Positions 28,123 through 32,839 of a stretch of DNA of 35,400 bases are shown here, piece by piece. The DNA comes from Armatimonadota bacterium (GTDB lineage: Bacteria > Armatimonadota > Fimbriimonadia > Fimbriimonadales > Fimbriimonadaceae). The translations under genes were made by a program, and so were the position numbers. Each line of letters starts with the position of its first letter. The first letter of the stretch is position 1. The stretch covers positions 1 to 35,400 of the forward strand of contig JAKOXK010000062.1 of the NCBI GenBank assembly GCA_029781035.1. The letters are read 5' to 3'. A model generated the notes under the pieces. The model did not search any database. It had not been told where the DNA came from and worked only from the letters and a program-made list of their open reading frames with translations.

Positions 28123-28815
28123 GTGTCTTGTTTACGAAGAGGAGTCTTGCCTTTGCTCGCCCTGGCGGCGCTGGCCCCGGCGGCGGCGGCGTACACGCTG
28201 ATCGACGACTTCAAGGTCGGCGACTACCACTCCGTCATCAATTGGCCGAACAACCACGACGGCAACAAGCTGACGGGTCTCGACCGGGGCCACTCAGCTT
28301 TTGGCATCCGTGCCACGGACGTCACTGTCAATACAAACGCTGACCACGTCCCGGTCTACATCGACATGGGGGGCGGAATGGGCCGCATATCCTACGACTC
28401 TCCCAGCGGCGACATCGCCACCGACACGACGTTCCAATTCGGATACCCCGGGGGCCCAAACCTGGATCTGTCGCCGGAGTCGGAAATCTGGGTGGACCTG
28501 TACACTGAAAACCCGCCGAACCGGCTCGCCGACGAGTGGTCGGTGACCATCGCTGACGGAGACGGCCACAACTCCACGAACCCGGGCTTCATCTCCCGCT
28601 TTGGGGGCATCCGTTTCAAGAGGACGGGCTTCAACAACACCATCGACTGGTCGCGGATCAACCGCATCGCGTTCGAGCAGAAGTTCACGCCAGACTTCGG
28701 CGACGTCCCGATGGCTTACACCGTCACCAAGATCTACACGGTGCCAGAGCCGAATGCGGCGGCCCTGCTCGCCGCAGCGCTCGGACTGTTGGCCCTTGTC
28801 AGGAGGGCCGGGTGA
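28123..28815 (+). CDS. PEP-CTERM protein, copy 1 of a tandem pair
   Basis: 230 residues. A signal peptide (LPLLALAALAPAAAA) leads into a beta-rich domain starting YTLIDDFKVGDYHSVI, and the protein ends with a PEP-CTERM tail: VPEP, then a hydrophobic helix and RR. That tail is the sorting signal cut by an exosortase (not in this window), so the protein is likely exported and anchored or glycosylated. The middle 180 residues are unknown to me; they contain VTDV/ADHVPVYIDMGGGMGRISYDSP and IRFKRTGF, shared with the next gene. The start is uncertain: GTG 28123 or a later TTG. An ACACTG-T-CAGTGT palindrome (28112-28124) overlaps this GTG. It overlaps copy 2 by 4 nt (GTGA). Confidence 0.8.
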   Translation: MSCLRRGVLPLLALAALAPAAAAYTLIDDFKVGDYHSVINWPNNHDGNKLTGLDRGHSAFGIRATDVTVNTNADHVPVYIDMGGGMGRISYDSPSGDIATDTTFQFGYPGGPNLDLSPESEIWVDLYTENPPNRLADEWSVTIADGDGHNSTNPGFISRFGGIRFKRTGFNNTIDWSRINRIAFEQKFTPDFGDVPMAYTVTKIYTVPEPNAAALLAAALGLLALVRRAG

Positions 28816-29498
28816 CGACCCGCCTCCTGCCTTTGCTCGCCCTGGCGGCGCTCGCCCCGGCGGCTGCGGCGTACACGCTGATCGACGACTTCACGGTCGG
28901 CGACTACCACTCCGTCATCGACTGGCCGAACGACCACGACGGTAGCAAGCTCTCCGGGCTCGACCGGGACCACTCCGCGTTCGGCATCCGGTGGACCGAC
29001 GTGACCGTCGAGGCGAACGCCGACCACGTCCCTGTCTACATCGACATCGGAGGCGGAATGGGCCGCATCTCTTATGACTCGCCCAGCGGAAACATGGCGA
29101 CGAAGACGGTGTTCCAGTTTGGAGCACCGCTTGGGCCCAACCTAGACCTCTCGGGCGAGTCGGAGATCTGGATCGACCTCTACACAGAGGACCCTTCGAA
29201 CCGCGACGCGGACGTGTGGGACCTGACGGTCGCCGACGCCGACGGCCACGTGGACACCGACCCGGGCTGGATCCACCGGGACGGAGGCATCCGTTTCAAG
29301 AGATCCAGCTTCGCGGCCAACATCGATTGGACGAGGGTCAACAACATCGCCTTCCGGCAGGTCTTTACCCCGGACTTCGGCAAAGTGCCGATGGCGTACA
29401 CGGTCACGAAGGTCTACACGGTGCCGGAGCCTGGGGCGGCGGCCCTGCTCGCCGCGTCGCTCCTCGCCCCCCTCGGTCTTCGAAGGCGCTCACTGTAG
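28812..29498 (+). CDS. PEP-CTERM protein, copy 2 of a tandem pair
   Basis: 228 residues, a close paralogue of the upstream gene over its whole length: same signal peptide (LPLLALAALAPAAAA), same domain (YTLIDDF, DHDGSKLSGLDRDHSAFGI, ADHVPVYIDIGGGMGRISYDSP, MAYTVTKVYTVPEP) and a C-terminal VPEP-hydrophobic-RRR tail. The DNA around the signal peptides (28147-28240 and 28827-28921) is nearly identical, offset by 681 bp, so this is a recent-looking tandem duplication. GTG start with AGGAGG 5 nt upstream (28801-28806). The 4-nt overlap with copy 1 suggests coupled translation and equal supply of the two proteins. The domain family is not one I can name. Confidence 0.85.
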   Translation: MTTRLLPLLALAALAPAAAAYTLIDDFTVGDYHSVIDWPNDHDGSKLSGLDRDHSAFGIRWTDVTVEANADHVPVYIDIGGGMGRISYDSPSGNMATKTVFQFGAPLGPNLDLSGESEIWIDLYTEDPSNRDADVWDLTVADADGHVDTDPGWIHRDGGIRFKRSSFAANIDWTRVNNIAFRQVFTPDFGKVPMAYTVTKVYTVPEPGAAALLAASLLAPLGLRRRSL

Positions 29499-29508
29499 GG
29501 GCACTCCT

Positions 29509-29676
29509 GCTGGGTTTTTGTCGCTAGATCATCGGATTTAGTCGCTGCGTTCTCGAACGGAGCGATAAAATCATCGAATTCCATGGCGCCGTTCTCGAAC
29601 GGAGCGATTTCTTCATCGGATTTTGCGGCAAGATTCTCGAAATCCGTGGCTGCGTTCTCTGTTTTTGTGGCTGCGC
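29509..29676. repeat. Degenerate 21-bp tandem repeat array, about eight units
   Basis: Eight 21-bp units can be laid in register from 29509 to 29676. Two units are identical over 16 bp (TCTCGAACGGAGCGAT at 29551 and 29593, 42 bp apart), and others share the pattern CATCGGATTT...GTGGCTGCGT. Because 21 is a multiple of three, the array is a 7-residue repeat in translation. It begins 10 nt after the stop codon of the second PEP-CTERM gene. The minus-strand reading gives alanine/acidic heptads such as LAAKSDE and FIAPFEN, but has no usable start. I see no CRISPR-like spacers. Confidence 0.7.
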
Positions 29677-29677
29677 A

Positions 29678-29702
29678 CTCGCACGAAACTCCTCCGTGCG
29701 AG
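29678..29702 (+). terminator. Terminator-like hairpin next to the 21-bp array
   Basis: CTCGCACG (29678-29685) pairs with CGTGCGAG (29695-29702), 9-nt loop, followed by AGTTTTG on the plus strand. It may end transcription from the PEP-CTERM pair. Confidence 0.6.
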
Positions 29703-29743
29703 AGTTTTGCTGCAAAGCGACCGGAGGCCCCTCAATCCCCCAA

Positions 29744-29804
29744 CCTTCGACTTCGCTCAGAGAGTAACCCCTCCTCGTCTGCACAAGCATCTGACGAGGA
29801 GGGG
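29744..29804. repeat. Intergenic motif plus 12-bp hairpin
   Basis: CCTTCGACTTCGCTCAG (29744-29760) is followed by a perfect 12-bp stem CCCCTCCTCGTC (29768-29779) with GACGAGGAGGGG (29793-29804), 13-nt loop. The first part resembles the CTGAGC-GAAG-TCGAAGG elements that occur in many copies in some environmental genomes. Together with the array at 29509 it makes the whole 29499-29842 gap a repeat-rich, non-coding element. Confidence 0.5.
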
Positions 29805-29842
29805 GCTCCGTATTCTTCACTCTCCACCCGCCCAAGTCGGGC

Positions 29843-29848
29843 TAAACT
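29843..29848 (+). promoter_or_regulatory. -10 box of the GH116 gene (leaderless type)
   Basis: TAAACT 9 nt before the ATG at 29858 with no Shine-Dalgarno; the transcript would start about 2 nt before the ATG. Confidence 0.55.
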
Positions 29849-29857
29849 GCGTGCGGC

Positions 29858-32839
29858 ATGGCAGAACTGAGTCGACGGACGATGCTCAAGATGGCGGGGG
29901 GAGCGACGCTGGGGCTGGGGCTGCCGGGAAAGATCCTGGCCGTGCTCAAGGACGGTTCCATCGTGGTGCAAAACCATCAGATTCCAGCCGAAAAAGGGCT
30001 GACCGAGGCGTGGAAGAAGGCGCTGGTCGCCCGAGGCGAAAAGGAAGTGTGGACGGGCGAGGCGCTGGAGTCGATCGGCATGCCCATCGGCGGCATCGCC
30101 ACCGGCCAGCTCTACCTTCGGGGCGACGGCACGCTCGGCTGCTGGGAGATCTTCAACCACCACGAGTTCCAGAGCTACGGTTCGACCAGCTACGCCAAAC
30201 GCGCCATCCCGGACACGGTGAAGTTCGGCTTCACCTGCCTGGTGGGCGGCGGGGGCTGGGACCTGCACAAGGAGGGCTTCGGCAAGGTCAGCTTCAATGG
30301 CCAGTACCCGACCGCGACGGTGACCTACGAGGACGAGGGCAGCCCCGTGCGCGTGCGGCAGACCGCCTACTCGCCCTTCATCCCGCTCAACGCCAAGGAC
30401 AGCGGCCTGCCCGCGACACTTTTTGAGATCGAGGTCGAGAACACGTCCGGCACAGACCAGAAGGTGACGATGACGGGGTTCCTCGAAAACGCAGTCTCAC
30501 GTTCTGCGGGCTCCTCGCGCAAGACCTGGCTCAAAGCCGTCTCGGGCGAAGGAATGTGCGGCATCATGCACGGCGTGGACCCCGTTCCGGGCGAGTTCTT
30601 CTTGCCTGACAAGGGGCGCAAGACGGTGCCGATCGCGGACTTTGAGGGCAGCACCTACGGCGACTGGAAGGTAGAGGGCACGGCCTTCGGCCCCGGCCCC
30701 GCGCGCGGCACACTGCCCAACCAGAACGCGGTCACCGGCTTCGTCGGCAAGGGACTGGTCAACACGTATTTCGAGGGCGACGACACCAAGGGCAAACTGA
30801 CCTCGCCGGAGTTCACGGTCGAGCGCAGCTACATCAACTTCAAGATCGGAGGCGGGCGGCAGCCGGGCAAGTGCTGCATCAACCTGCTGGTCGATGGCAA
30901 AGTCGCGCGGACCTCGACCGGCCTCAACGACGAGAAGCTAATGTGGGAGTCGTGGAACGTCAGCGAGTTCGAGGGCAAGAAAGCGCAGATCGAGATCGTG
31001 GACGACGCGGCCGGCGGCTGGGCGCACATCAACATCGACCAGATCGAGCAGGCGGACACGGTGCGCTCGCACGAGGATCTGAAAGCACGCCACGGCGACC
31101 CGAACCTCGACAACGGCACCATGGCATTGGCGTACTTGGGACAAGGCGTGACGACGGACGCGGCCCGGCCCGGCCCCGAGCTCGGACGATTGGCTTCCGC
31201 CGAGACCACCGTGCGCGCCGGTGCCCGACACACGTTCGTGTTCGTCCTGGCTTGGAACTTCCCGAACCACCCGCGCGGGCACAACTATGTCAATTTCTGG
31301 AGCGACGCGGGCGAAGTCGCCCAATACGTGGCGCAGAACGCCAAGCGCTTGAGCCGCGACACCAAGCTCTGGCGCGACACCTATTACGACTCGACCCTGC
31401 CGTACTGGCTGCTCGACCGCCTGCACTCGACAGCGGGCAACCTCTGCACCGGCACGACGCAATGGTGGAAGACGGGACGGTTCTGGGCGTATGAAGGCGT
31501 GGTCTGTTGCTCGGGCACCTGTACCCACGTGTGGAACTACGAGCACAGCATGGCCCGGCTCTTCCCCGAGCTTGAGCGCAACGTCCGCGACCGGCAAGAC
31601 TTCGGCGAGGCGTTCGACGAGGCGACGGGGTTGGTCGGTTTCCGCAGCGACCGCGAATACGCCGCCGACGGTCAGTGCGGCACGGTGCTCAAGGCGTACC
31701 GCGAGCACCTTGGCAGCGCCGACGACAGTTTCCTCAAGAAGCACTGGCCGCGGATCAAGAAGTCGCTCGAGTATCTGATCGCCCACGACGCGAACGGCGA
31801 CGGCGTGATCGAGGACGCGCAGCCGAACACCTACGACATCGACTTCTTCGGTGCGAACACGTTCGTCGGCTCGCTGTACCTGGCCGCCCTGCGGGCCGGA
31901 GAGGAAATGGCGAAGCTCATGGGCGATTCGGCTTTCGCGACACAGTGCCGCGGGCTCTTTGAAAACGGAAGTGAGGCGAACGTCAAGAACCTCTTCAACG
32001 GCGAGTACTTCATCCAGGATGTCGATCAGAACAAGTACAAGGAGTTCCAGTACGGACCTGGATGCCTCGCCGACCAGTTGTTCGGGCAGGGTTGGGCCCA
32101 TCAGGTGGGTCTGGGTCACATCTATCCAAAAGATAACGTCGTGAGGGCGCTCCAGGCCGTGTGGAAGTACAACTGGGCTCCCGACGTGGCGGCACAGAAC
32201 AAGCGGTGGCCGCCCGAGCGCCCGTTCGCGGTTCCGGGTGAGGCGGGCCTGTTCATCTGCACCTGGCCGAGCGGTGGCCGTGAGAAGGAACCCGTCCGTT
32301 ACCGGGACGAAGTTTGGACGGGCATCGAGTACCAGGTCGCAGGCAACATGATCTGGGACGGGCTCGTGGAGGAGGGGCTCTCTATCTGCAGGGCCGTCCA
32401 CGAGCGCTACCACCCGATCAAGCGCAACCCCTACAACGAGGTGGAGTGCAGCGACCACTACGCCCGGGCGATGGCGTCTTGGGGGGTGTACACGGCTTTA
32501 TCGGGCTTTCGGTACGACGGGCCAAGAGGATCGATCGGCTTCGACCCTCGCGTGACCCCTGAGGACTTCCGGGCCGCGTTTACAGCGGCCGAAGGTTGGG
32601 GAACCTATTCGCAGAAGGCCGGGCCAGTAACCCACAATTCAACACTCAAGTTGGCCCATGGAAAGCTGCGCGTTACGGAGATCGTCCTGAGGCCACTCGT
32701 TGGTGGTCGGGCCCGTGTGACCTTGGGAGGCAAGCCGGTCCAATCGACGACCTCGCGCGAGGAAGGGCTGACGAGGGTGTCGTTCGACGCCCTGACGGTC
32801 AATGCGGGCGACACACTCGAGGTCCAGTTCTCGGAATGA
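29858..32839 (+). CDS. GH116-family beta-glycosidase with Tat signal and inserted module
   Basis: 993 residues. SRRTMLK (5-11) and the hydrophobic run after it form a Tat signal. The N-terminal beta domain (IGMPIGGIATGQLYLRGDGTLGCWEIFNHHEF) is that of GH116/GBA2-type glycosidases; the C-terminal two thirds is the (alpha/alpha)6 barrel. By comparison from memory, the nucleophile is Glu546 (GRFWAYEGVV) and the acid/base Asp660 (NTYDID). The enzyme likely cuts a beta-glucoside or beta-xyloside; the exact substrate is unknown. Residues about 261-400 (DFEGSTYGDWKVEG to GGWAHINIDQIEQAD) are an extra beta-sandwich of the kind usually attached to GH32 and secreted planctomycete-type proteins, here placed inside the N-terminal domain. 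TAAACT lies 9 nt before the ATG. Confidence 0.92.
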   Translation: MAELSRRTMLKMAGGATLGLGLPGKILAVLKDGSIVVQNHQIPAEKGLTEAWKKALVARGEKEVWTGEALESIGMPIGGIATGQLYLRGDGTLGCWEIFNHHEFQSYGSTSYAKRAIPDTVKFGFTCLVGGGGWDLHKEGFGKVSFNGQYPTATVTYEDEGSPVRVRQTAYSPFIPLNAKDSGLPATLFEIEVENTSGTDQKVTMTGFLENAVSRSAGSSRKTWLKAVSGEGMCGIMHGVDPVPGEFFLPDKGRKTVPIADFEGSTYGDWKVEGTAFGPGPARGTLPNQNAVTGFVGKGLVNTYFEGDDTKGKLTSPEFTVERSYINFKIGGGRQPGKCCINLLVDGKVARTSTGLNDEKLMWESWNVSEFEGKKAQIEIVDDAAGGWAHINIDQIEQADTVRSHEDLKARHGDPNLDNGTMALAYLGQGVTTDAARPGPELGRLASAETTVRAGARHTFVFVLAWNFPNHPRGHNYVNFWSDAGEVAQYVAQNAKRLSRDTKLWRDTYYDSTLPYWLLDRLHSTAGNLCTGTTQWWKTGRFWAYEGVVCCSGTCTHVWNYEHSMARLFPELERNVRDRQDFGEAFDEATGLVGFRSDREYAADGQCGTVLKAYREHLGSADDSFLKKHWPRIKKSLEYLIAHDANGDGVIEDAQPNTYDIDFFGANTFVGSLYLAALRAGEEMAKLMGDSAFATQCRGLFENGSEANVKNLFNGEYFIQDVDQNKYKEFQYGPGCLADQLFGQGWAHQVGLGHIYPKDNVVRALQAVWKYNWAPDVAAQNKRWPPERPFAVPGEAGLFICTWPSGGREKEPVRYRDEVWTGIEYQVAGNMIWDGLVEEGLSICRAVHERYHPIKRNPYNEVECSDHYARAMASWGVYTALSGFRYDGPRGSIGFDPRVTPEDFRAAFTAAEGWGTYSQKAGPVTHNSTLKLAHGKLRVTEIVLRPLVGGRARVTLGGKPVQSTTSREEGLTRVSFDALTVNAGDTLEVQFSE

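Follow-up and report, generated by a model that had tools for sequence, protein, structure and literature searches.

A diverged intergenic 21-bp tandem array in an Armatimonadota genome, possibly an orphan of arrays found upstream of a fibronectin-III gene family

Array A and its surroundings

The window, the 35,400-nucleotide stretch of Armatimonadota DNA analysed here, contains a degenerate tandem array (array A) in a 359-bp gap (29499-29857) between two plus-strand genes, a PEP-CTERM-like gene before it and a GH116 gene after it (Table 1). The PEP-CTERM profile scores 16.4 bits on the upstream gene, below the 20.7-bit cut-off. This gene belongs to a pair of tandem paralogous PEP-CTERM-like genes (28123-29498) that overlap by 4 bp. 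The G+C content is 0.50 in array A versus 0.61 in the window. An inverted repeat (CTCGCACG / CGTGCGAG, 29678-29703) abuts the end of the array and is paired in the predicted fold, and a perfect 12-bp inverted repeat with a 13-nt loop (29768-29804) lies between the array and the start of the GH116 gene; beside the latter, TTCGACTTCGCTCAG is similar to a REP-like motif.

Table 1. Array A and neighboring features, in window coordinates
Feature	Position	Strand	Basis
PEP-CTERM-like gene, upstream of array A and separate from it	28812-29498	+	ORF
Array A, roughly eight units of 21 bp that also pair into 42-bp units	29508-29675	.	autocorrelation, shuffles, unit table
16-mer TCTCGAACGGAGCGAT, copy 1	29551-29566	+	exact match
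16-mer TCTCGAACGGAGCGAT, copy 2, identical, 42 bp on	29593-29608	+	exact match
GH116 (DUF608) gene	29858-32839	+	ORF; Pfam PF04685, PF12215

The self-match of array A (29509-29676) is highest at lags 42 (0.58), 63 (0.49), 84 (0.48), and 21 (0.46). Its lag-21 value was reached by none of 5000 dinucleotide-preserving shuffles, and its best value over lags 10 to 63 by none of 2000. The initial annotation had described about eight 21-bp units, two of them identical over 16 bp at 42-bp spacing, and had named the joint absence of other copies and of a period-21 signal as the outcome that would speak against it; the periodicity and the two exact copies agree with that description, and this outcome did not arise. 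The search that it had suggested for dispersed copies of the 16-mer came back with these two alone, since the 3.42-Mb assembly (96% complete) holds no third copy at up to one mismatch. The eight units are 68% identical to their consensus, and weak similarity runs slightly past the array at either end. Array A is absent from the output of Tandem Repeats Finder even at score 30, because the unit copies are too diverged. Rfam at gathering thresholds gave no match in the window to a known structured RNA family; the folding z score is -2.98 for array A and -0.63 for array B (described below). The unit of array A is not palindromic (consensus dyad score of 5 versus a shuffle mean of 4.4, p = 0.40).

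Two of the six frames are stop-free through array A, the plus-strand frame that reads through the stop codon of the PEP-CTERM-like gene and one minus-strand frame, both as initially described; the remark that no start codon or ribosome site supports a gene on the minus strand also stands, as no start codon with a ribosome site was seen for that frame. The pN/pS ratio between units is 0.73 in the plus-strand read-through frame and 0.80 in the open minus-strand frame, and ranges from 0.73 to 1.21 over all six frames. The heptad frames of array B contain stops, and in 39 sister arrays the number of open frames out of three is 1.62 on the sense and 1.62 on the antisense strand (column-permutation null, 1.30 and 1.26). 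The sequence of array A gives no sign of coding, and a translated ancestor may be compatible with these tests.

Array B and the FN3-4H gene family

A weak BLAST match (E = 0.16) led to array B, an intergenic array of the same genome (contig C7, L025:5661-5786; unit consensus TTCGAGGTTTTTGCGACCGCG) that precedes a 215-amino-acid (aa) gene of a family with a C-terminal fibronectin-III (FN3) domain, for which we coined the name FN3-4H. The A-B alignment beats 2995 of 3000 column permutations, five being as good. When array A was compared with 44 arrays (400 permutations), the closest was array B (p = 0.005), followed by L169, which comes from another genome (p = 0.0075). To judge from these alignments, arrays A and B are likely, but not certainly, related. 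Among the 291 phylum genomes, unit pairs of the B type were present in one, namely this one, where the 16-mer and the A and B consensus sequences gave only short matches besides A and B themselves. BLAST matches in G071, G090, G072, G068, G012, and G000 C64 were discarded, being 20 to 33 bp long with no comparable array there. A B-type pattern scan of genome contigs, which may omit the own genome, gave eight matches, seven of them with a local lag-21 value of 0.38 to 0.52; L061, from the same scan (0.70), seems to be an Ala/Lys-rich coding stretch. The array A pattern had no match in viral contigs. Elsewhere in the own genome, a noncoding period-11 array (GGTTGTGGTTA, L025:9940-10150) lies directly before the start of a minus-strand GroEL-like ORF.

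A search of the 291 genomes with the heptad consensus protein returned 10 places in 8 genomes, comprising A, B, and eight others that are 21-bp-periodic with unrelated units; among these eight, the ones in G159 and G017 seem to be coding. The 400,581 bases sampled from the relative G037 contain 11 arrays, 8 of which have a period of 21, 42, or 84. None of these eight falls within an ORF of 200 aa, and three are on the two contigs picked because the search had matched arrays there. The nine other sampled genomes (besides the own genome and G037) yielded one noncoding array with a period that is a multiple of 21, in a G055 stretch chosen for it. Arrays without an FN3-4H gene exist in the G037 stretches examined; at least three are flanked by convergent ORFs, so that a promoter role is unlikely there, and one (L079:19576-19781) is at the end of its sequence stretch, with its neighbor beyond it. 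The orphan array on contig C180 matches the FN3-4H-linked array b of G037 at 83%, and the similarity stops near the array edges. Dyad-symmetric units were suspected by eye in the G037 arrays, which the test did not support (15 arrays combined, p = 0.72). Among the readings offered by the initial annotation, an intergenic repeat family is the nearest: the 21-bp period does recur, including in array B, but the units are mostly unrelated and the 16-mer is not dispersed.

The genes downstream of array B (215 aa) and array b (211 aa) are homologous, with 24% identity. The C-terminal half of FN3-4H is an FN3 domain: a titin FN3 fragment is matched by profile (E = 1e-12), and 5 of 19 members match Pfam fn3 at E = 0.01. 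The N-terminal half is rich in alanine and appears helical. Neither the 211-aa nor the 215-aa protein reaches a cut-off of Pfam or NCBIfam. Matches to the family occur in 37 of 291 phylum genomes, with up to at least 10 per genome among the matches listed, and a profile search of the window at E = 1 came back empty. For FN3-4H, the scanned libraries yielded no transposase match; PADLOC gave no match of any kind for 19 members, two queries had no match in viral contigs, and one protein had no match among plasmids and phages at E = 1e-3. PHROGs tail-protein and PDB matches were set aside, as the FN3 part either contains them or would be expected to produce them. In G075, a CRISPR-like array (L196:44-1268; repeat GTTGCAACCGAACCCTCGTTAAGAAGAGGACTGAAAC) adjoins an FN3-4H gene.

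Association of 21-bp arrays with FN3-4H genes

We examined 70 FN3-4H places (30 loci from the family search and 40 further ones), taken roughly but not strictly by score and with some near contig ends left out, and called an array when it had a period of 21, 42, or 63 and a score of at least 18. Upstream arrays, ending 61 to 303 bp before the protein match, were present at 39 of the 70 places, and downstream arrays within 700 bp at none; when the two genes from which the idea came are excluded, the upstream count is 37/68. The upstream arrays come from 22 of 30 genomes, and each of the three FN3-4H genes in the own genome has one. For the control ORFs an array had to lie outside long ORFs, a rule not applied in the count of 39/70; under it, FN3-4H has 29/70 upstream and 0/70 downstream. 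Control ORFs of at least 250 aa, from stretches of eleven phylum genomes, had an array within 700 bp upstream in 2 of 625 cases, both of them being one G037 array between divergent ORFs. Six of the eleven control genomes have FN3-4H matches, and there the figure is 2/423; the own genome has no array beside its 104 control ORFs.

The mean lag spectrum of the region 60 to 400 bp upstream of 69 members (lags 5 to 89) peaks at 42 (0.387), 21 (0.385), 63 (0.359), and 84 (0.356) over a median of 0.258 and has no signal at 10, 11, 31, or 32. The 31 of 70 members without a called array have z values of 7.1, 5.7, 4.2, and 3.5 at lags 21, 42, 63, and 84; because these are the same four lags, some of these members probably contain an array that has decayed as array A has. 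A Bacteroidetes-type -7 motif was seen in 2/15 spacers, 4/15 upstream stretches, and 3/15 arrays, too few to place a promoter.

In a second phylum (that of G297, presumably Bacteroidota), 27 of 395 genomes match, many only through FN3 domains of long proteins. Among 18 genes of FN3-4H size, 17 have an upstream array with a period that is a multiple of 21 and 1 has a downstream array, the strongest or nearest array lying 45 to 425 bp before the gene start. The weakest case is L249 (period 63, 425 bp), and the only array of L277 is 234 bp downstream. An upstream array within 700 bp was also found for 4 of 44 other ORFs, all four of which share the arrays of FN3-4H genes. The 22 loci of long FN3 proteins are without arrays, which is a weak control, since only 8 of them include the region upstream of the matching ORF.

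The period is conserved, but for the most part the sequence is not. Among the 990 pairs formed by 45 arrays, similarity z has a median of 0.15, and the arrays of the closest FN3-4H protein pair (85% identical) are unrelated (p = 0.30). Array similarity reaches p < 0.05 in 6 of the 22 closest protein pairs, more than expected by chance, so the arrays retain some memory. In the closest gene copies, DNA similarity spans about the start codon to about the stop codon, which indicates that most copies dispersed as single genes or that their flanks turned over. The exceptions are L186 and L233, with 872 bp downstream in common; L211 and L212, with 140 bp upstream; L176 and L214, with DNA outside the gene; and L270 and L272, with a longer weak stretch. 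Relative to column-permuted arrays, the mean folding z is -1.33 (sense) and -1.31 (antisense) and the mean z of A/T-tract phasing is 1.33, all of them away from zero; as the permutation also disrupts tracts and dinucleotides, we draw nothing from either.

Possible origins and comparison with known systems

Array A has the period of the FN3-4H-linked arrays and is likewise noncoding as far as its sequence indicates, but no FN3-4H gene lies about 60 to 300 bp downstream of it, so it is at most an orphan. We place it in the class as an orphan with moderate confidence; the chances that it is specifically a noncoding intergenic orphan of these arrays, either a relict or an unoccupied site, seem to us evenly balanced. 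A broader and more tentative proposal is a two-part module, present in at least two phyla, in which a dispersing solitary gene (a helical-looking N-terminal part plus an FN3 domain) is accompanied, at many or most of the places where it occurs, by an upstream 21-bp array whose sequence is mostly local, and array A would be a gene-less site; some process would then have to produce or preserve arrays with a two-turn helical pitch, largely irrespective of their sequence. As for how the class might come about, arrays could arise in place through successive tandem amplifications of DNA from beside the gene promoter, keep their pitch because 21 bp corresponds to two helix turns or to a fixed protein footprint, and act in cis on the neighboring gene. 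Array A would have decayed after its partner gene was lost, or the partner would never have arrived. This combination of in-place amplification, two-helical-turn pitch, and cis effect is the account of the class that we favor, though with low confidence. The GH116 gene is a possible target of such action by array A. The array ends 182 bp before the GH116 start, inside the 61- to 303-bp range of the FN3-4H arrays, which fits the orphan reading, but eight GH116-homologue loci of relatives have no comparable array. The merely moderate A-B similarity, the G037 orphans between convergent ORFs, and the 31 of 70 members with no called array also weigh against this reading.

Replication slippage produces arrays of this kind in many genomes, and array A could be a neutral minisatellite decaying in an intergenic gap, unlinked to the FN3-4H arrays. 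The absence of an FN3-4H gene nearby, units only 68% alike, and a moderate A-B similarity would all fit. However, noncoding arrays with multiples of 21 are rare in the sampled DNA of relatives except G037 (a single array from nine genomes), the periods are exact multiples of 21 only, and array B of the same genome is FN3-4H-linked, which leaves neutral slippage unlikely. For the class as a whole, the main alternative to in-place amplification is that the arrays are docking sites for a moving FN3-4H gene, array A being an empty one. That orphan arrays exist, and that the closest gene copies have the gene but not flanks or array in common, would be expected if so; yet the lack of arrays at the 104 control ORFs of the own genome implies few empty sites, array sequence is also common to 6 of the 22 closest protein pairs, some pairs have neighboring DNA in common, and neither a transfer gene nor a boundary sequence was found. 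We consider docking improbable.

Least probable, and very much so, is that array A is a decayed minus-strand gene for a heptad-repeat (coiled-coil-like) protein or a translated extension, both among the initial suggestions. Although the period equals seven codons, each strand has one open frame, and strain-variable coding 21-nucleotide tandem repeats are known (PMC3472980), the missing start, the pN/pS of 0.73 to 0.80 in the open frames, the stops in the array B heptad frames, and a sense strand no more open than the antisense strand in 39 arrays all count against a decayed gene. An extension of the PEP-CTERM protein is not supported either, given the tandem paralogue (28123-28815), which stops after the equivalent C-terminal motif without an array. 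The PEP-CTERM motif functions at the C terminus.

We return to the reading of array A as an orphan of the FN3-4H-linked class for the comparison with known systems. REP sequences and their RAYT transposases resemble this class in that the repeats are intergenic and occur both next to a partner gene and as orphans. REPs are palindromic and alike within one genome, whereas the units here run head to tail, have no dyad symmetry, and differ between loci; unlike RAYT, FN3-4H has no transposase match in the libraries scanned. In G071, repeated frames (CHPERQRRV / LRFAQND, L015:651-1016) look like REP-type dispersed repeats.

Changes in repeat copy number reportedly alter the expression of vlhA genes. 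In the vlhA family of Mycoplasma gallisepticum, GAA repeats lie upstream of the promoters (PMC6258824). The family resembles FN3-4H in being multicopy and in having tandem repeats a short distance before its members, but the vlhA unit is 3 bp with one sequence for all copies, whereas FN3-4H arrays have 21-bp, mostly unrelated units; the genomes compared here represent one per species. The RepMP1/DUF16 genes of Mycoplasma pneumoniae carry 21-nucleotide tandem repeats of variable copy number (PMC3472980). Their unit is exactly 21 bp, as it is here; there, however, the repeats encode coiled-coil heptads, whereas the present arrays lie between genes and show no coding signal, and array A does not lie inside a gene under protein constraint, as a DUF16-type array would.

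Among open-licence papers we found no description of the array or of the array-gene pairing, and as part of the tentative two-part proposal the pairing with FN3-4H would be undescribed. Tandem repeats near genes are common in general. Here, next to one gene family and in two phyla, the repeat sequence mostly differs between copies but its length remains 21 bp, and this calls for some process that fixes the length of the repeat largely independently of what the repeat says. The uncharacterised, often multicopy FN3-4H family thereby gains a recurrent genomic companion, of which array A would be a minor and decayed instance. Arrays of another kind, with a period of 58 to 59 and unlike the 21-bp class, occur in G008 (L108:313-1936).
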